Shown one piece after another: positions 48,728 through 60,586 of a stretch of DNA of 64,000 bases. The notes under the pieces are model-generated. The model was given only the letters and a program-made list of their open reading frames with translations, was not told the DNA's origin and ran no database searches. Source of the stretch: Methanobrevibacter millerae (GTDB lineage Archaea > Methanobacteriota > Methanobacteria > Methanobacteriales > Methanobacteriaceae); the NCBI RefSeq assembly GCF_001477655.1, contig NZ_CP011266.1:2092001-2156000 (forward strand). Direction: 5' to 3'. A program made the position numbers and the translations under genes. Each line of letters begins with the position of its first letter. The first letter of the stretch is position 1.

Positions 48728-49900
48728 TTATTGTTTAATGTATTTTTTCAAGTCTTCAACTTTGTCTGTTTTTTCCCATGGAAGACCTTCAATACCGAAG
48801 TGTCCGTATTTAGCGGTTTGTTTGTATTGAGTGTCTCTTAAACCTAAGGTTTCGATGATTCCGTCCGGAGTTAATCTGAAGTTTTCACGAACGATTTCTT
48901 CCATTTTTTTGGTTGTTTCAACACCAGTTCCGAAAGTGTCCACCATAACAGAAGTTGGCTCTGCAACACCGATTGCATAGGACAATTGAATTTCACATTT
49001 TTCAGCAAGTCCGCTTGCTACGATATTTTTAGCGATGTATCTTGCCATGTAGCATGCGCTTCTGTCTACTTTAGTGCAGTCTTTTCCGGAAAATGCTCCT
49101 CCACCATGTCTTGCATATCCACCATAGGTGTCTACAATGATTTTACGTCCGGTAAGACCTGCATCTCCATGAGGACCACCGATTTCGAACTTACCTGTTG
49201 GATTGATATGTTCTTTGGTGTTTTCTGTCATCAATTCCTGTGGAATTACTGCTTTGAATAATTTTTCGCGAATGTCTTCTTTTAATCCTTCCTGATTTTC
49301 AGACATTGACTCGTCATGCTGGGTTGACAATACAACAGCATCCAAGGAAATCACATTTCCTTTTTCATCATAGTTAACAGAGACTTGAGCTTTTCCATCA
49401 GGTCTTAAGTATGGAATTTCACCAGATTCCCTAAGTTCAGTCAATTTATTAGTTAATTTACGTGCCAAATCAATCGGGAAAGGCATCAATGAATCAGTCT
49501 CATTGGTTGCATAACCAAACATCATACCCTGATCTCCTGCACCGGTTTCATCTTCACCACGATCAACACCCTGATTAATATCAGGAGACTGTGAATGAAG
49601 CATGTTTACAACTTCACATTTATGACCATCAAATTCCAAATCAGGATTATCATAACCGATTTCAATGATAGTATCTCTAATAATTTTTTCAATATCATCA
49701 TCAGATAACTGAGCAGTTGAAGTTATCTCACCAAATACCATACAGAAATCAGTTGTCACACAAGTCTCACAAGCAACATGTGAATTCTTATCCTGTGCCA
49801 TGTATGCATCCAATATAGCATCAGAAATAATATCTGCAACCTTATCCGGATGTCCTTGAGTTACAGACTCAGAAGTAAAAGTTCTATAAATTTCACTCAT
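48728..49900 (-). CDS. metK: S-adenosylmethionine synthetase, bacterial type
   Basis: MetK makes SAM from methionine and ATP. The 390 residues show the bacterial/eukaryotic motifs [27 protein letters not shown] and [17 protein letters not shown]. Archaea usually have a very different SAM synthetase, so this copy is probably a bacterial acquisition. It follows ahcY by 16 nt on the same strand, with AGGTGA before the ATG. The operon couples SAM formation with removal of its by-product. Confidence 0.96.
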
Positions 49901-49916
49901 TTATTTCACCTAAATT

Positions 49917-51167
49917 TTATGTTCCTTCTTGCCAGTTTGCCATGTAAGCTTTTTGTTTGTCTGTTAATGAGTCGATTTCAATGTCCATTGCTTGTAGTTT
50001 TAAGCTTGCTACATTGTAGTCGATTTCATCAGGTGCTTTGGTTACACCGACAGGTAAATCATTTTCAAGAATGTGTTTTGCGGATAGTGCTTGTACTGCA
50101 AAACTCATGTCCATGATTTCAGCAGGATGTCCTTGTCCACGTGCTGCAGATAAGTTTACTAAACGACCGTCTGCGAGCAAGTAGATTTTTCTTCCATCTT
50201 TAGTTGTAAACTCTTCGATACTTTCTCTTACTTCTTTTACTTCGGTTGAGATTGCTTCGAGGTCTTGTCTGTTGATTTCTACATTGAAGTGTCCGGAGTT
50301 TGCAAGCATGCATCCGTTTTTCATGTATTTAAAGTCATCACCAGAGATGATATCAGCGTTACCGGTTACAGTAATGATTAAGTCTGCTTGTTTTACTGCT
50401 TCTCTTATGGTCATTACTCTGTATCCGTCCATTCTTGCTTCTAATGCTCTGATTGGGTCGACTTCTGTTACGATTACGTCTGCTCCGAGTCCTGCTGCTC
50501 TGAGTGCGAGTCCTCTTCCGCACCATCCGTATCCGCAGACTACGACGGTTTTTCCTGCAATTACCATGTTAGTGGTTCCCATTATTGCGTCAAAGCTTGA
50601 TTGACCAGTTCCGTAACGGTTATCGAATAAGTATTTGGTGTATGCGTCGTTTACTGCGATTACTGGGAATTTTAATGCGCCGTCTGCATGCATTGCCTGT
50701 AATCTATGTACTCCAGTTGTGGTTTCTTCACATGCTCCTTTGATGTGGCTTAGCAATTCTGTTCTTTCGTTGTGAAGTACCATAATCATGTCTGCTCCGT
50801 CATCGATGATTATGTCCGGTTTGTGGTCTAATACCATGTTAATGGTTTGGTAGTATTCTTCATCATCTTGTTCTCTCCAACCGTAAACATTTAATCCTAA
50901 GTCTGCAGCTCCAGCTACAGCATCATCATGAGTGGATAATGGGTTACAACCAGTCATTGCAACTTCAGCTCCACCAGCCATTAAAGTTAAACCTAAATTA
51001 ATTGTCTTAGGTTCTAAGTGTAAACATGATCCAATAGTAATTCCTTTGAAAGGTCGAGTTTCCAAATATTCTTCTTTAATGTGTTCTAAAACAGGCATGT
51101 GTTTTTGAACCCATTCAATCTTTCTGACACCCTCAGGTGCAAGAGACATATCTTTAACTTTACTCAT
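49917..51167 (-). CDS. ahcY: S-adenosylhomocysteine hydrolase (archaeal type)
   Basis: The enzyme splits S-adenosylhomocysteine to recycle homocysteine; in some methanogens the preferred substrate is S-inosylhomocysteine. The 416 residues lack the long insertion of bacterial forms. Seen are YLFDNRYGTGQSSFDAIMG, the NAD-binding VVVCGYGWCGRGLALRAAG, ANSGHFNVEI and RLVNLSAARGQGHPAEIMDMSF. GGAGG precedes the ATG. The middle of the gene (about 50430-50570) has a local GC peak with C-ending codons, which fits high expression. It heads an operon with metK. Confidence 0.95.
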   Translation of the reverse strand: MSKVKDMSLAPEGVRKIEWVQKHMPVLEHIKEEYLETRPFKGITIGSCLHLEPKTINLGLTLMAGGAEVAMTGCNPLSTHDDAVAGAADLGLNVYGWREQDDEEYYQTINMVLDHKPDIIIDDGADMIMVLHNERTELLSHIKGACEETTTGVHRLQAMHADGALKFPVIAVNDAYTKYLFDNRYGTGQSSFDAIMGTTNMVIAGKTVVVCGYGWCGRGLALRAAGLGADVIVTEVDPIRALEARMDGYRVMTIREAVKQADLIITVTGNADIISGDDFKYMKNGCMLANSGHFNVEINRQDLEAISTEVKEVRESIEEFTTKDGRKIYLLADGRLVNLSAARGQGHPAEIMDMSFAVQALSAKHILENDLPVGVTKAPDEIDYNVASLKLQAMDIEIDSLTDKQKAYMANWQEGT

Positions 51168-51344: not shown

Positions 51345-52649
51345 TTAGCAACCAATTTGGAAAAGTTCAAATCCTTCATCTTCAATACGCTTAGAATAAA
51401 TATTTCTCCCATCAAAAATAATTTTTTGATTTAATCTTTTTGAAAGTTCATCTAAATCCAAACTTCTAAATTCTTTCCATTCAGTTATTAATATTAATGC
51501 ATCAGCATTATCCAACGCGTCATATTTTGATGAAGTAAAATCAATATTTTCATCATCAATTTCTCTTTTAAATGTTTCAATAGCCTTAGAATCATATGCT
51601 TTAATTTTTGCTCCCCTTTTTAAAAGTTCGCTGACAATAGTGATTGAAGGAGCACATCTAACATCATCAGTTTGGGGTTTGAATGCAAGTCCCCAAATAG
51701 CAAAGGTTAAATCACTCAAATCAGGACCAAATCTATTAATTATTTTATCAATAATAACCATTTTTTGAGTTTCGTTAACTTCATCGACCATAGACAATAT
51801 CCTTGGAATATAACCTTTTTCAACTGAAGTATTAATTAAACCTTTAACATCTTTTGGAAAACAAGACCCCCCATAACCACAACCGGCATAAATAAACTTA
51901 TATCCAATGCGCTTATCAGAACCAATACCTAAACGAACAGATTGTACATTAGCCCCTGTTTTTTCACAAATATTAGCTATTTCATTCATGAAAGATATTT
52001 TAGTTGCAAGCATTGCATTAGCAACATATTTAGTCATTTCGGCACTTTTTACATCCATAAAAATAAAACGGTCATGATTTGCAACAAAAGGTTCATATAA
52101 TTCTTTTAAAACATTTGCCACTTTTTCATCTTCAGTCCCAATAATAACTCTATCAGGATGTAAACAGTCTTCAATTGCAACACCTTCCTTTAAAAATTCA
52201 GGATTTGAAGCAATATCAATATTAACGTTATTTAATTTATTTTCATTAATAATCTTTTTAACTTCAAAACCCGTACCTACAGGAACAGTAGACTTAGTGA
52301 CAATTAAAGAATCTTTAGAAATAACCTCCGCAATTTGATTTGCAACAACATAAACAAAATCTAAATTAACACTACCATCATCTGCTTGAGGAGTACCTAC
52401 AGCAATAAAAATGATATTTGAATTATCCAAAGCTTCTTTTAAATCTGTTGTAAAAAATAAATTATTTTTAGCTTGGTTATCAATAACCATTGTAGCTAAA
52501 TGAGGTTCATAAATAGGAATAATGCCTTTTTTTAAGTTTTCAATTTTATCTTCATCAATATCCACACAATAAACTTTATTACCCATTTCAGCAAAACAAG
52601 TCCCAGTTACGAGTCCAACATAACCCGTTCCAATAACAGTCAAATTCAT
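51345..52649 (-). CDS. UDP-glucose/GDP-mannose dehydrogenase (long form)
   Basis: A second nucleotide-sugar dehydrogenase, 434 residues, of the common bacterial UDP-glucose 6-dehydrogenase type: MNLTVIGTGYVGLVTGTCFAEMG, SNPEFLKEGVAIEDCLHPDRVIIG and the catalytic cysteine in GCGYGGSCFPKDVKGL, then the C-terminal UDP-binding domain AIWGLAFKPQTDDVR. It probably makes a UDP-uronic acid for surface glycans. It stands at the edge of the polysaccharide cluster and shares only general similarity with the ugd at 45726. Its stop lies about 178 nt from the ahcY start. Confidence 0.92.
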   Translation of the reverse strand: MNLTVIGTGYVGLVTGTCFAEMGNKVYCVDIDEDKIENLKKGIIPIYEPHLATMVIDNQAKNNLFFTTDLKEALDNSNIIFIAVGTPQADDGSVNLDFVYVVANQIAEVISKDSLIVTKSTVPVGTGFEVKKIINENKLNNVNIDIASNPEFLKEGVAIEDCLHPDRVIIGTEDEKVANVLKELYEPFVANHDRFIFMDVKSAEMTKYVANAMLATKISFMNEIANICEKTGANVQSVRLGIGSDKRIGYKFIYAGCGYGGSCFPKDVKGLINTSVEKGYIPRILSMVDEVNETQKMVIIDKIINRFGPDLSDLTFAIWGLAFKPQTDDVRCAPSITIVSELLKRGAKIKAYDSKAIETFKREIDDENIDFTSSKYDALDNADALILITEWKEFRSLDLDELSKRLNQKIIFDGRNIYSKRIEDEGFELFQIGC

Positions 52650-56023: not shown

Positions 56024-56968
56024 TTAAAATTTTTTTATATCATTTATTTTTTTCTTTAGTTGAATATTTTCATAAATAATATGTCTAGCATCAAACTCAA
56101 ATCTGTTCTTTTGAATGTTTTCACATATCTCATGAATATTATTAATTTGGATTTTTCTAAGTTCAATATCTTCTTTAATAAACTTATTCAATTCAAAAAT
56201 TAAACCAAAAGTATTATCAAAATGAGCAGTTGGATAAAAAGCACTGAGCGTAAATGGAATTAAATTAAATTTAAACAAATTTTCTATAATTTTTAAAAAG
56301 GATATATCTGTGAAAACCCAAAGATGACCATCAAAAATATGATTATTAAAATCATTCACATAATTTGAATAATTATCTAAACAGGCTTTAACATTAGGAT
56401 TTGGATATTGATCCAACTCTTTATTCCAAAAAATTATGGGATTATTAACATTAACCGAATCAATCATACTATCCAATACCAATCGTGGAGTATTAATTTC
56501 ATCACCTCTTAAATACATATCAAATAAATCTGCAAATGATGAATTTTCTCGAAAATGATCAAATGTAAATTCTTTATTTGGAAGCAATAAACAAAGTTTG
56601 CCATTATCAGATAGTATTTTACTTATATCTATCAAATGTTGTATTGGATCTGGAACATGCTCTAAAACATGACTAGAAAATACATAATCAAATTTTTCGC
56701 CACTATCTTTAAATGTATCCTCATAAGATTCTTTAATAACATAATCAATATCAACAATACTATTAATAAATTCTTCATTAGAATTATACGATGAATATAT
56801 ACTTTTAACATCCTCAGTACTATTTATATCAGCATAATATACATTAAAATCAGATTTATGAAAAAAAGGTTTATTTAATGGACCAATTTCTAAAATTTTT
56901 CCATCATTTTTAATTTCATTTTTCATCCGATCATGTGCACGAACATCTAATGATAAATTGTTGTTCAT
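56024..56968 (-). CDS. SAM-dependent methyltransferase (class I)
   Basis: A 314-residue protein with a class I methyltransferase domain: GKILEIGPLNKPFF (SAM loop), VYYADIN, FDYVFSSHVLEHVPDPIQHLIDISKIL and GKLCLLLPNKEFTFDHFR. The rest (about residues 165-314) has no recognisable fold and ends in a helical region. The ATG overlaps the stop of the upstream AlgX-like gene by 4 nt (ATGA), so the two are translated together. It likely methylates a sugar or a glycan end. Confidence 0.82.
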   Translation of the reverse strand: MNNNLSLDVRAHDRMKNEIKNDGKILEIGPLNKPFFHKSDFNVYYADINSTEDVKSIYSSYNSNEEFINSIVDIDYVIKESYEDTFKDSGEKFDYVFSSHVLEHVPDPIQHLIDISKILSDNGKLCLLLPNKEFTFDHFRENSSFADLFDMYLRGDEINTPRLVLDSMIDSVNVNNPIIFWNKELDQYPNPNVKACLDNYSNYVNDFNNHIFDGHLWVFTDISFLKIIENLFKFNLIPFTLSAFYPTAHFDNTFGLIFELNKFIKEDIELRKIQINNIHEICENIQKNRFEFDARHIIYENIQLKKKINDIKKF

Positions 56969-58467
56969 AAACTATCACCAAAAATATTAATATTACTCCA
57001 AAAATATATTTTTTTGTTTTTTACCCAATCAGGAGTTGCTAAATTATCAATAAATCTTTCAACTCTTGCTTCTATAATAACATCAGGATTAATAAATTTT
57101 ATTAAATTTTCATCAACAGTTGCATGGTCCCAACATAAAAATATATCTCGATAATAAAATGAAAAATACCATTTTAATAAATCAAAAGTTGAATCCCTAA
57201 ATATTAATACAGATTTATCTGAGAAACTATATGGATTATACCAATGAAATGATTCTCGTTTATGATAAAATTTAAACTTATCGGGGATGGGAATGGAACT
57301 AAGAACAAGAGGTTTTAAAACTAAATTAAATTTCTCAGTAGGAATATTTTTAAGTTCCAATTGCTCTTTTTTTGAATATGACCAATTTTTATCCGAAAGT
57401 AAATCACTATCCCAAAATTCATTAATTTCTTTAACATTTGTGTCTAAAAGATTATTCCATGCCCCCATAGTTAATTTTTTATCCATATGATTTAAAAATT
57501 TAAATGAAAGAACATGACCTCCAAAATAATTAATATGAGTATCAAATTTAAAATAATGAAGATGATTTAAATAATCTTTAAAATCTATAATTTCTTTAAC
57601 AGAATCCACATTACGTTTAATTTTATCAAAATGGAATGGAAGAAAATCTTTACATACTATACTTTTATCAGGAATGCAAAAAAAGAAGTACTCAATACCA
57701 TTATCTTCAAATAATTCCTTTTTAAAATAATATTCCTCTAAAAAATGTGATTTATTAAATTTATTTTCATAAGTAAAATCAAAATGTTGTCTAATCTCAT
57801 TATTTTCATCATTGATTAAGAATAAATAATTATCTTTACCCTTTAAGCAAAGTTTAAGATTTTGAGATAAAATTTCATCTATTGAAAAATTTTTAGTTAA
57901 TACATTAGAAGAATCATATTTTAAATAAAAAATAAATGGATTAATATTAAAATTTTGTATATTAGGATTTTGACTTAAATAATAATTAGTATCAAAATTC
58001 GGATTAGGATTAAAACCTTTATGAACACCAACCTCTAAAAAATGAATAATCGGATTAACATCACTATCCAAACCATATTTTTCACAATAATACTCAGAAT
58101 CAAAAAGATTTGAATTTAATATAATTAAATAATCTTCAACATCTTGAATATTTGAAAAATTCATATTAAATATTTCCTCAATAGATAAAAATTTAGTTAA
58201 TCTATGTTCATCTAATCCATATTTAATATAATGAACAAAAGGATTAATGTTCTTCTCGTATATGTCAGGATATCTATTACAATAAAAATTAGTATCAAAA
58301 TTCGGATTAGGATTAAAACCTTTATGAACACCAACCTCTAAAAAATGAATAATCGGATTAACATCACTATCCAAACCATATTTTTCACAATAATACTCAG
58401 AATCAAAAAGATTTGATTCATTTATAATTTTATAATCCTCAGAAAAATTCATAAAAACACAACTCAT
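56965..58467 (-). CDS. AlgX/AlgJ-like SGNH-fold protein with duplicated glycan-cluster repeats
   Basis: Two parts are visible. Residues 18-200 hold two copies of a repeat (FDSEYYCEKYGLDSDVNPII..., 43 residues identical at 18-60 and 119-161), each followed by a shorter unit of the same type. Such FD-YY-NP-HYL repeats occur at the N-termini of bacterial glycosyltransferases. Residues 205-500 resemble AlgX/AlgJ-type O-acetyltransferases: LKGKDNYLFLIND, CIPDKSIVCKDFLPFH, FDTHINYFGGH (catalytic Asp/His) and IFRDSTFD (candidate nucleophile Ser 426). No signal peptide or membrane helix is present, unlike exported bacterial AlgX, so it would act in the cytosol. The start could also be ATG 58452. Confidence 0.72.
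   Translation of the reverse strand: MSCVFMNFSEDYKIINESNLFDSEYYCEKYGLDSDVNPIIHFLEVGVHKGFNPNPNFDTNFYCNRYPDIYEKNINPFVHYIKYGLDEHRLTKFLSIEEIFNMNFSNIQDVEDYLIILNSNLFDSEYYCEKYGLDSDVNPIIHFLEVGVHKGFNPNPNFDTNYYLSQNPNIQNFNINPFIFYLKYDSSNVLTKNFSIDEILSQNLKLCLKGKDNYLFLINDENNEIRQHFDFTYENKFNKSHFLEEYYFKKELFEDNGIEYFFFCIPDKSIVCKDFLPFHFDKIKRNVDSVKEIIDFKDYLNHLHYFKFDTHINYFGGHVLSFKFLNHMDKKLTMGAWNNLLDTNVKEINEFWDSDLLSDKNWSYSKKEQLELKNIPTEKFNLVLKPLVLSSIPIPDKFKFYHKRESFHWYNPYSFSDKSVLIFRDSTFDLLKWYFSFYYRDIFLCWDHATVDENLIKFINPDVIIEARVERFIDNLATPDWVKNKKIYFWSNINIFGDSL
57984..58113. repeat. 130-bp direct repeat, copy 1
   Basis: A 130-bp stretch identical to 58287-58416, offset 303 bp (101 codons), inside the AlgX-like gene. Identity at synonymous positions shows a recent duplication or gene conversion. 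Confidence 0.9.
58287..58416. repeat. 130-bp direct repeat, copy 2
   Basis: The second copy of the repeat at 57984-58113. It encodes the N-terminal 43-residue unit of the AlgX-like protein. Recombination between the copies would delete exactly 101 codons and keep the frame. Confidence 0.9.
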
Positions 58468-59104: not shown

Positions 59105-60502
59105 TTAATTCCACAATTTACCTCTTACTTTAAATAAAAAACGTTTAATAGAAAATTTATCATTTACATTATCATTCTCTAGAGATAATTTATTAATATA
59201 TTCTTTTTGATTATTATTCTCAATCCTATATTGAGATATTGACGCTTTAAGAGAATTAATAGACTTAATTAACATATTATTTTGTTCAAGCAAGTTTAAA
59301 TAATCGTTCAATAAACTAACTTTTTCTCCATTTAATTTTTTATTTTCATTATATAAAATTACTTTAGTTTGAGTTAAAATATTATTCCTATTTAATAATT
59401 TTTCATTCTCCATAGATAACCCATCACATTTATCTAGCAAAACACACTTAGATTTAACTAAATCAACATTACGATTAGCCAACTTCTCATTTTCATCAAC
59501 TAAATCATTATATTTATTTAACAAATCATTATTAGAATTAACTAAATCAACAATACGATTAGCCAACTTCTCATTTTCATCAACTAAATCATCACGTTGA
59601 TTTAATACAATTTGCCTAGACTTAACCAAAGAAGAATTAATATTATTTAAAGTTTTATTAGTTTCCATAAGATTATTATTTTCATCAATAAATTTGATTT
59701 TTTCTTGAGTTAATTCTTTATTTAATAAAACAATAGAACTTTCTAATTCTGAAATTTTATCCATAGATAATATCATATTTCTCAAATAACTTTTTTCTAA
59801 TAGAAAAGTAATATCACTTTTTTCAATTATATTATTTATTTTAGATTTTAAACTTGATTCATTTGGATAAATAATTCCCAATCCATTAAAAGCCATAATA
59901 GTAGAAAAAGATAAATCATTTTTAGATTCATGTAAAAAATCCTCAATGGCAGTCAAAACCCCATTTTTAGCACCATTTTCATAAATTGCATTATTTAAAT
60001 TACAGTTTAATCCTCCTTTTTCTAATAATTCCGGTGTATCTGGTAACATGCCTTTTTTAGCATACTCATGCAAAAATTCTTTAGGAATTGTTTTGGGATT
60101 ATAATAAAGATCACGCCTACCATATGGCCATCCCACATCATGTAAAATAATAATTGGAAATTTTTTCCCAATGAATTTTTTTTCAATTAATTTGAGTTCA
60201 TTATATACAGTATACCAATTATGATCCCCATCAATTAATATTACATCATAATCATTAATTTCTTGAAGACAATTTAAACTTAAATCTTTAATTAATTTAA
60301 AATGGTCCCCATATTGATTTGAAAATTTATTTTCATCAAAAAGAGGGTGGGGATCAATTGTAATTAAATAAGAATTATTTTTAATACAATAACTCAAAAT
60401 TTTTTCAGTGTTGATTCCATCTTCAGAACCTATTTCAACAATATTTTTAGGTTTTAACTCTTTAAATAAAGGTAAAACAATAATTTCCCACATACGTCGC
60501 AT
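59105..60502 (-). CDS. CmcI-type methyltransferase-fold protein with long coiled coil (possible chain-length ruler)
   Basis: Residues 1-215 fit a SAM-methyltransferase or CmcI-like fold: KNIVEIGSEDGINTEKIL, YLITIDPHPLF, YDVILIDGDHNWYTVYNEL and IIILHDVGWPYGRRD. Residues 245-450 are a long coiled coil made of 28-residue units (four heptads): DLVDENEKLANRIVDLVNSN and two following variants line up at about 307, 335 and 363, with a weaker one before. The protein ends with a basic, hydrophobic tail (FSIKRFLFKVRGKLWN). Methyltransferase plus coiled coil is the plan of WbdD, which caps and measures O-antigen. ATG 60502 is preceded by GTGATATTT. Numbering counts from the GTG at 60511. Confidence 0.72.
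   Translation of the reverse strand: MRRMWEIIVLPLFKELKPKNIVEIGSEDGINTEKILSYCIKNNSYLITIDPHPLFDENKFSNQYGDHFKLIKDLSLNCLQEINDYDVILIDGDHNWYTVYNELKLIEKKFIGKKFPIIILHDVGWPYGRRDLYYNPKTIPKEFLHEYAKKGMLPDTPELLEKGGLNCNLNNAIYENGAKNGVLTAIEDFLHESKNDLSFSTIMAFNGLGIIYPNESSLKSKINNIIEKSDITFLLEKSYLRNMILSMDKISELESSIVLLNKELTQEKIKFIDENNNLMETNKTLNNINSSLVKSRQIVLNQRDDLVDENEKLANRIVDLVNSNNDLLNKYNDLVDENEKLANRNVDLVKSKCVLLDKCDGLSMENEKLLNRNNILTQTKVILYNENKKLNGEKVSLLNDYLNLLEQNNMLIKSINSLKASISQYRIENNNQKEYINKLSLENDNVNDKFSIKRFLFKVRGKLWN
59453..59596. repeat. 84-bp-periodic direct repeats coding for coiled-coil units
   Basis: ACGATTAGCCAACTTCTCAT and its continuation TTTCATCAACTAAATCAT occur at 59471 and again at 59555, an offset of 84 bp or 28 codons. 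Similarity extends about 18 nt to the left of each copy. The repeats change coiled-coil length in whole four-heptad steps when gained or lost. Confidence 0.85.
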
Positions 60503-60586
60503 AAATATCACATTTAATCCTATTAAAACTATTAATCATAGGTTTTATCAAATAGAAATTATATAAAGTAAAAAAAATCTATTTAA

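Follow-up and report, generated by a model that had tools for sequence, protein, structure and literature searches.

A methyltransferase on a coiled-coil arm beside a giant glycosyltransferase in Methanobrevibacter millerae: a candidate split chain terminator of archaeal surface glycans

Coiled-coil terminators of glycan chains occur in fused or split form and, in the portions of the literature on which this account draws, are described as widespread in bacteria (PMC11231755). In the known examples the capping enzyme sits at the distal end of the coil and the polymerase near the membrane, with the parts laid out on one chain in O12 and O7, on two in O9a and on more in O4, and terminator orthologues that end after the coil exist as well (PMC11231755). 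The length of the WbdD coil sets the modal chain length, with a spacing of about 20 nm (PMC5082667), and the O8 WbdD is a methyltransferase without a kinase (PMC3482155). In WsaE an N-terminal methyltransferase makes a 2-O-methyl cap, and its methylation in vitro is independent of chain length (PMC2943079). The S-layer glycan of C. difficile carries a phosphate cap, with no link to the head described below in the portion of the source used (PMC6254364). Among open-access titles and abstracts I found no archaeal coiled-coil glycan terminator (subscription literature lay outside the scope of that search), and a broad search of the open-access literature on methyltransferase-coil-glycosyltransferase terminators yielded nothing useful.

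Here I describe a gene from a stretch of 64,000 nucleotides of the Methanobrevibacter millerae chromosome (the window) that encodes a methyltransferase head followed by a long coil. The family and fold of the head, the coil, the order of the surrounding genes, the relationship to fused proteins elsewhere and the sugar and SAM genes nearby (Table 1) were computed. The reading I prefer, at a probability of roughly 0.45, is that the protein may be a glycan-methylating, chain-capping enzyme that the coil spaces from a giant polymerase.

Table 1. Features at and around the methyltransferase-coiled coil gene, in positions of the window
Feature	Position	Strand	Remarks
Methyltransferase-coiled coil gene	59105..60502	-	one open frame, 465 aa from ATG 60502
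Head, residues 1-229	59816..60502	-	class I SAM-dependent O-methyltransferase by family and predicted fold, PF13578
Coiled coil, about residues 239-445	59168..59788	-	heptad periodicity and predicted helices
Three alike 28-residue units, residues 295-378	59369..59620	-	block comparison
84-bp direct repeat, 2.2 copies	59422..59605	-	tandem-repeat listing, 86% matches, score 277
Basic, aromatic C-terminus, residues 448-465	59108..59161	-	place of the coil-end motif; Trp motif absent
Giant glycosyltransferase, C-terminal 1137 aa	60587..64000	-	upstream neighbour; whole gene to 65899, 1770 aa
Second methyltransferase, PF08241	58474..59076	-	28 nt downstream of the methyltransferase-coil gene
500-aa protein	56965..58467	-	two N-terminal YYC..YGLDSDVNP-type repeats; no Pfam match
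Third methyltransferase, PF13489	56024..56968	-	4-nt overlap with the gene of the 500-aa protein
RmlA-type nucleotidyltransferase, PF00483	54914..55801	-	
RmlC, dTDP-4-dehydrorhamnose 3,5-epimerase, PF00908	54350..54907	-	
RmlB-type sugar-nucleotide dehydratase, PF16363	53329..54393	-	
UDP-glucose/GDP-mannose dehydrogenase family	51345..52649	-	
S-adenosylhomocysteine hydrolase	49917..51167	-	near; perhaps outside the cluster
S-adenosylmethionine synthetase	48728..49900	-	near; perhaps outside the cluster

A GTG at 60511 also opens the frame, and the M-R-R-M-W start of the protein agrees with the M-x-R-[FLM]-W of its relatives. Residues 22-123 match PF13578 (Methyltransf_24) in Pfam with an E-value of 9e-11 and 43 bits, against a curated cut-off of 26.3, and span the whole 105-position profile. 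In an alignment of 56 head sequences E23, G25, D91, D93, H94, H121 and D122, among others, are invariant, and the SAM motif, D91-x-x-H94 and H121-D122 are likewise unvarying. The AlphaFold2 model built on this alignment has a mean pLDDT of 82, with values above 90 over most of the head and low confidence at residues 342-378. Structure comparison shows a COMT-like fold, with catechol-type O-methyltransferases matching at Z of about 15 over 155-178 residues. The top Foldseek match of the head is PaMTH1, and a weak alignment (E 0.087) pairs D91 and H94 with the D and K of its D-A-N-K; by analogy with COMT, the two residues would be the metal ligand and the general base. The methyltransferase-type head of the original prediction thus holds, and by family and predicted fold the head is a SAM-dependent methyltransferase. 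Searched against PDB chains at E 0.01, among which is the WbdD of O9a, the head profile found no sequence match, and a search by sequence for solved relatives gave chance-level matches only; WbdD is also absent among the structural matches listed, which excludes nothing. Pfam finds no kinase domain in the 465-aa protein, and a search of a plasmid collection returned one distant match from Rhizobium.

The upstream neighbour, a protein with a GT4-type module, YYL..PDV repeats and a GT2 module, ends 84 nt before the methyltransferase-coil gene, and from this giant down to RmlB the genes are spaced by 84, 28, 6, -4, 222, 6 and -44 nt; the first four of these spacings give the surroundings of the gene an operon-like appearance. 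The C-terminal part of the 500-aa protein is, as I take it by eye, AlgX/SGNH acetyltransferase-like. A repeat of the form LFDxxYYxxxxPDVxxxxxNPxxHYxxxGxxE occurs in this protein (56965-58467, where it matches no Pfam family), at about residues 400-560 of the giant and at the C-termini of the proteins of loci L004, L005, L007 and L008. Besides glycosyltransferases and the acetyltransferase-like protein, divergent methyltransferase-coil proteins bear this repeat, at their far end, and it is perhaps a shared docking domain.

The presence of three methyltransferases in one operon favours the main rival of capping, which I consider nearly as likely. According to it, the head decorates: it methylates within the glycan, on a nucleotide sugar or on a lipid-linked unit, and gives no stop signal, while the coil only tethers and oligomerises the enzyme at the complex of glycosyltransferases and is loosely constrained in length. 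The WsaE methyltransferase, indifferent to chain length in vitro (PMC2943079), also suits this alternative, and the relatives of the head bear on it from both sides.

The best 80 of 185 confirmed relatives of the head, mostly bacterial, were kept, and 86 loci were sorted. As many as 42 loci hold a stand-alone head with no coil, 6 have tails of 40-79 residues, 23 have tails of at least 80, and in 15 glycosyltransferase modules, detected with stricter in-house queries, share the frame of the head; the last two classes overlap, as L016 and L043 of the tail class have glycosyltransferase domains by Pfam. When eight long-tail proteins were submitted to Pfam, seven had such domains behind the coil (GT2 together with GT4-type in six, GT4-type only in L043) and L054 had none. 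One methyltransferase head is thus reused in three layouts, namely alone, with a coil, and with a coil and a polymerase. Since the stand-alone head is the commonest form, methylation needs no coil, which again favours decoration, and so does the distance to the end of the coil, which varies widely, from 65 to 338 residues, across the 23 proteins where its motif could be placed. This motif, similar to S-x-x-W-[RK]-x-[TGS], stands between the coil and the glycosyltransferase modules or at the end of unfused proteins, and is found in 24 of 40 tails where about one is expected from shuffles, a count that is descriptive, as the pattern was written after seeing the sequences. The close archaeal relatives of L002, L009, L022 and L058 and the protein of genome G094 end with it; it is missing in the window protein, in L014 and in the short-tailed L003. 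However, the retention of coil and motif across phyla argues against mere decoration, as does their place in the fusions: they fill just the stretch that separates the head from the polymerase modules, as the coils of known terminators do.

Some neighbours of the relatives deserve mention. Very large open reading frames stand beside the short-tailed relatives in L121 (7122-14996, 2624 aa, with no match to the queries used) and L091 (7718-14950, 2410 aa); both are probably adhesin-like. The Methanosphaera methyltransferase-coil gene is followed by LicD, phosphoenolpyruvate mutase and further phosphonate-type genes (L009:8001-15277), and a phosphonate decoration of the glycan there is possible.

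The link between head and giant comes from proteins in which both are joined, and this evidence, which lies outside the gene itself, weighs most. Compared with the open reading frames of the fetched loci, the giant matches methyltransferase-coil-glycosyltransferase fusions best (L029, with E-values of 3e-47 and 2e-43, L011, L012, L018 and L087). As this pool of loci had been gathered around the head, whole genomes were searched instead. A fused methyltransferase protein is the best genome-wide match of the giant in five of 14 bacterial genomes, six of these 14 having been picked because they already scored among the fetched loci, whereas another glycosyltransferase is the best match in the other nine; in one genome (G064) the matching frame has stops read through, and the match falls in the open reading frame of L018. 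Within the archaeal family of the window, a search of 138 genomes found 15 that have the head at an E-value of 1e-25 or better. One of them, G089, encodes a methyltransferase-coil-GT2-GT4 protein of 1050 aa (L119:5690-8842) that is also the best match of the giant in that genome (E 7e-31, the next best being 1e-12). With G089 added to the 14 bacterial genomes, the fusion protein is the best match in 6 of the 15 genomes that hold one. In G094 the methyltransferase-coil gene adjoins rmlA-rmlC-rmlB, as in the window cluster, and the best match of the giant lies 3.8 kb from it; in four other archaeal genomes searched with the giant, the best match lies elsewhere than the methyltransferase-coil locus. 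The fusions in bacteria and in G089, together with the best match in the latter, suggest that the window holds a split methyltransferase-coil-polymerase system, and the likening to bacterial coiled-coil chain terminators, originally made by analogy with WbdD, is now better founded, with GT2 and GT4 modules seen joined to a homologous head and coil in one protein.

Alternatively, the coil could be an unrelated scaffold that oligomerises or localises an enzyme acting on a substrate outside the glycan cluster. Coiled coils are common, and PF13578 is a broad family with no substrate known for it here; however, the position in the operon and the glycosyltransferase fusions, known from several phyla and from one archaeon, make this explanation highly improbable.

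The coil of about 200 residues that had been predicted is confirmed, as its hydrophobic periods of 3.5 and 7 residues (residues 246-447) exceed those in 5000 of 5000 shuffles, and AlphaFold2 places helices at residues 231-350 and 392-464. By arithmetic, the coil of about 207 residues would measure about 31 nm as one continuous helix. A canonical a/d heptad was expected but is not seen: hydrophobic residues fill position d in 28 of 29 heptads (Leu in 22) and e in 18, but a in only 7, and Asn occupies a in 14 of 29. With its Asn-rich a and hydrophobic e positions, this coil (59168-59788) has an unusual, non-canonical core. The end behind it, proposed to be basic and amphipathic, is basic, but shows no clear amphipathicity as a helix over its full length: the helical hydrophobic moment of the last 18 residues is 0.22, no better than shuffled (p 0.66). 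In shorter spans the moment reaches 0.51, with the pattern stronger at a strand-like angle. A contact of this end with the membrane is thus unsupported for the window protein.

The coil was further thought to consist of four-heptad units, with direct DNA repeats at exactly 84 bp. The repeats are present and outscore every other entry among the window's 93 tandem-repeat rows. As to the units, they account for the roughly 84 residues from 295 to 378, where the blocks 295-322, 323-350 and 351-378 give 19, 14 and 12 of 28 identical residues, but the remainder of the coil is made of ordinary heptads; of the eight 28-residue blocks, clear likeness is confined to these three, and the flanking blocks fall to 6-9 identical residues and then to background. 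The identity at lag 28 is 0.32 against 0.21 in heptad-preserving shuffles (z 5.0), an excess that is not significant outside the DNA array (p 0.135) and still significant when one array copy is cut out (p 0.0013). The two best 84-bp copies agree in 74 of 84 bases (10 differ) and in 20 of 28 residues, which points to an old duplication and no recent step.

One could see in the 84-bp repeat and the lag-28 signal a genuine molecular ruler adjusted by 28 residues, or 4 nm, at a time (28 residues being, by arithmetic, 4.2 nm of helix), for which the WbdD coil is a precedent (PMC5082667) and the weaker signals at lags 14, 28 and 56 in the G094 relative (z 2.6, 3.2 and 3.4, respectively) lend some weight. 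However, the confinement of the unit to residues 295-378, the age of the copies and the other periods used by relatives leave this ruler with very little chance. In lag tests with heptad-preserving shuffles on the relatives with long heptad stretches and on eight archaeal coils, the long-heptad relatives show signals mostly at lags 7, 14, 21, 35 or 42. Lag 28 is accompanied by a stronger 14 or 7 in L051 and L088, and by 14 and 56 in G094; the remaining relatives have lags 7, 14, 21, 35 or 42, other lags or no signal. As the window coil is the only one with a signal at lag 28 by itself, the 28-residue unit was rejected as a conserved ruler mark. The proposed tuning of length by gain or loss of such units is likewise unsupported, near-identical copies being absent and relatives repeating at other multiples of the heptad. 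I read this as coils that lengthen when whole heptads are duplicated in frame, in units of no fixed size; the 28-residue repeat is simply the way in which part of the window coil grew.

A Wzm and Wzt pair lies within the fetched flanks in 19 of 27 loci with long tails or fusions, against 1 of 47 without a long tail (Fisher p 1.8e-10) and none of the 42 stand-alone heads. Excluded from this count were 12 of the 86 loci, shorter than 9.8 kb, the second homologues in L041, L052, L054 and L074 and, by a filter on length and start, L006, L022 and a fragment in L067; L083, with the ATPase at the contig edge, was scored as having no exporter. In the head tree the association goes back mostly to a single split, the independent-pairs test having 1 pair on supported branches and 5 in all, and it supports a functional link without proving it to be causal. 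Often the Wzm and Wzt genes immediately precede the fusion gene (L011, L012, L016, L069). In L012, L016, L023, L029, L030, L031, L033 and L043, Wzt is about 500-574 residues long with two ATPase modules per chain, and these genes stand beside methyltransferase-coil(-glycosyltransferase) genes.

Wherever the flanks of close archaeal relatives could be read, Wzm and Wzt are not found together beside the gene: L009 and L119-L121 lack the pair, and L090 gives an ATPase-like match only. The window cluster contains no exporter genes, and its genome has no Wzt_C domain, the reader of caps, which again speaks for decoration. Pairs similar to Wzm/Wzt but without Wzt_C are located at about 2192 kb and 2487 kb, the nearest about 40 kb off and the latter adjoining another RmlA gene, and three flippase-type genes occur elsewhere in this genome. 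As a Wzm relative is found at E 1.1e-54 or better in 36 of 37 genomes of the genus, including that of the window, its presence is not specific to the methyltransferase-coil system. On one contig of G036, a Wzm gene lies about 12 kb from a divergent relative. Two Wzt-like ATPases on the window's chromosome lack Wzt_C and are extended at the N-terminus, by about 205 residues in L097:16109-17476 and by about 335, which look beta-rich by eye, in L099:5643-7412; these extensions are possibly an archaeal substitute for the cap-reading domain.

Returning to capping, the protein would be a SAM-dependent sugar O-methyltransferase borne on a coiled-coil arm, forming one assembly with the multi-module glycosyltransferase encoded upstream. 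Working on a surface glycan that is built in the cytoplasm, the head would cap the chain by methylating a sugar at the growing, non-reducing end. The coil would oligomerise and keep the head away from a polymerase bound near its far end, a spacing that would let short chains escape capping. Substrate, capping, oligomeric state and spacing as a control of length I infer; recruitment of the polymerase by the coil protein is indirectly supported by gene order and fusion, and, by analogy with some bacteria, the stalk could possibly set chain length. Several observations weigh against capping, namely the missing Wzt_C, the exporter pair some 40 kb off, the three methyltransferases of the operon, the nine of 14 bacterial genomes where the giant's best match lies elsewhere, the Asn at half of the a positions, the tails of archaeal relatives in L003 and L121, of only about 45-50 residues, the single tree split behind most of the exporter association, and the lack of a Wzm and Wzt pair next to the gene in close archaeal relatives. 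A wider claim, which I hold to be rather doubtful, is that in the Methanobrevibacter group of archaea a coil spacer between a capping methyltransferase and a separate multi-module polymerase controls how long methyl-capped surface glycans become, without Wzt_C and with a methyltransferase of a family other than that of WbdD. If true, chain-length control of archaeal surface glycans could be tested by insertion or deletion of heptads, and rumen methanogens, where a methyltransferase-coil protein lies beside a polymerase, offer a natural fusion in one relative.

Among described proteins, the stand-alone PF13578-type methyltransferases of Paenibacillus and relatives have a homologous head (about 43-56% identity) and, in contrast to the window protein, no coil and no glycosyltransferase modules. 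WbbB of O12 has a different terminator, Kdo. WsaE of Geobacillus stearothermophilus NRS 2004/3a, with a methyltransferase joined to two rhamnosyltransferase modules and with Rml genes, is likened to the window protein by layout, a coil not being mentioned in the part of the source used (PMC2943079). ORF6 of K. pneumoniae O7 and WbbB share the order terminator-coil-glycosyltransferase-glycosyltransferase with the fused relatives in bacteria and G089, although the O7 ORF6 has an added kinase and CBM where the window protein has only the PF13578 methyltransferase (PMC11231755). WbdD (E. coli O8/O9a, K. pneumoniae O5/O3) resembles the window system in its N-terminal methyltransferase, long coil and separate WbdA-like multi-module glycosyltransferase. 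The O8 enzyme also shares the absence of a kinase (PMC3482155), whereas the O9a and O3 enzymes have one. WbdD ends in a membrane-associated amphipathic helix in place of a basic end without clear helical amphipathicity, and the window differs further in its archaeal host and in a genome without Wzt_C. On the evidence of the sequences compared here, I favour seeing the window cluster as a split archaeal form with the general layout of WbdD/WbdA, which is split, and of the Klebsiella O7 ORF6, which is fused.
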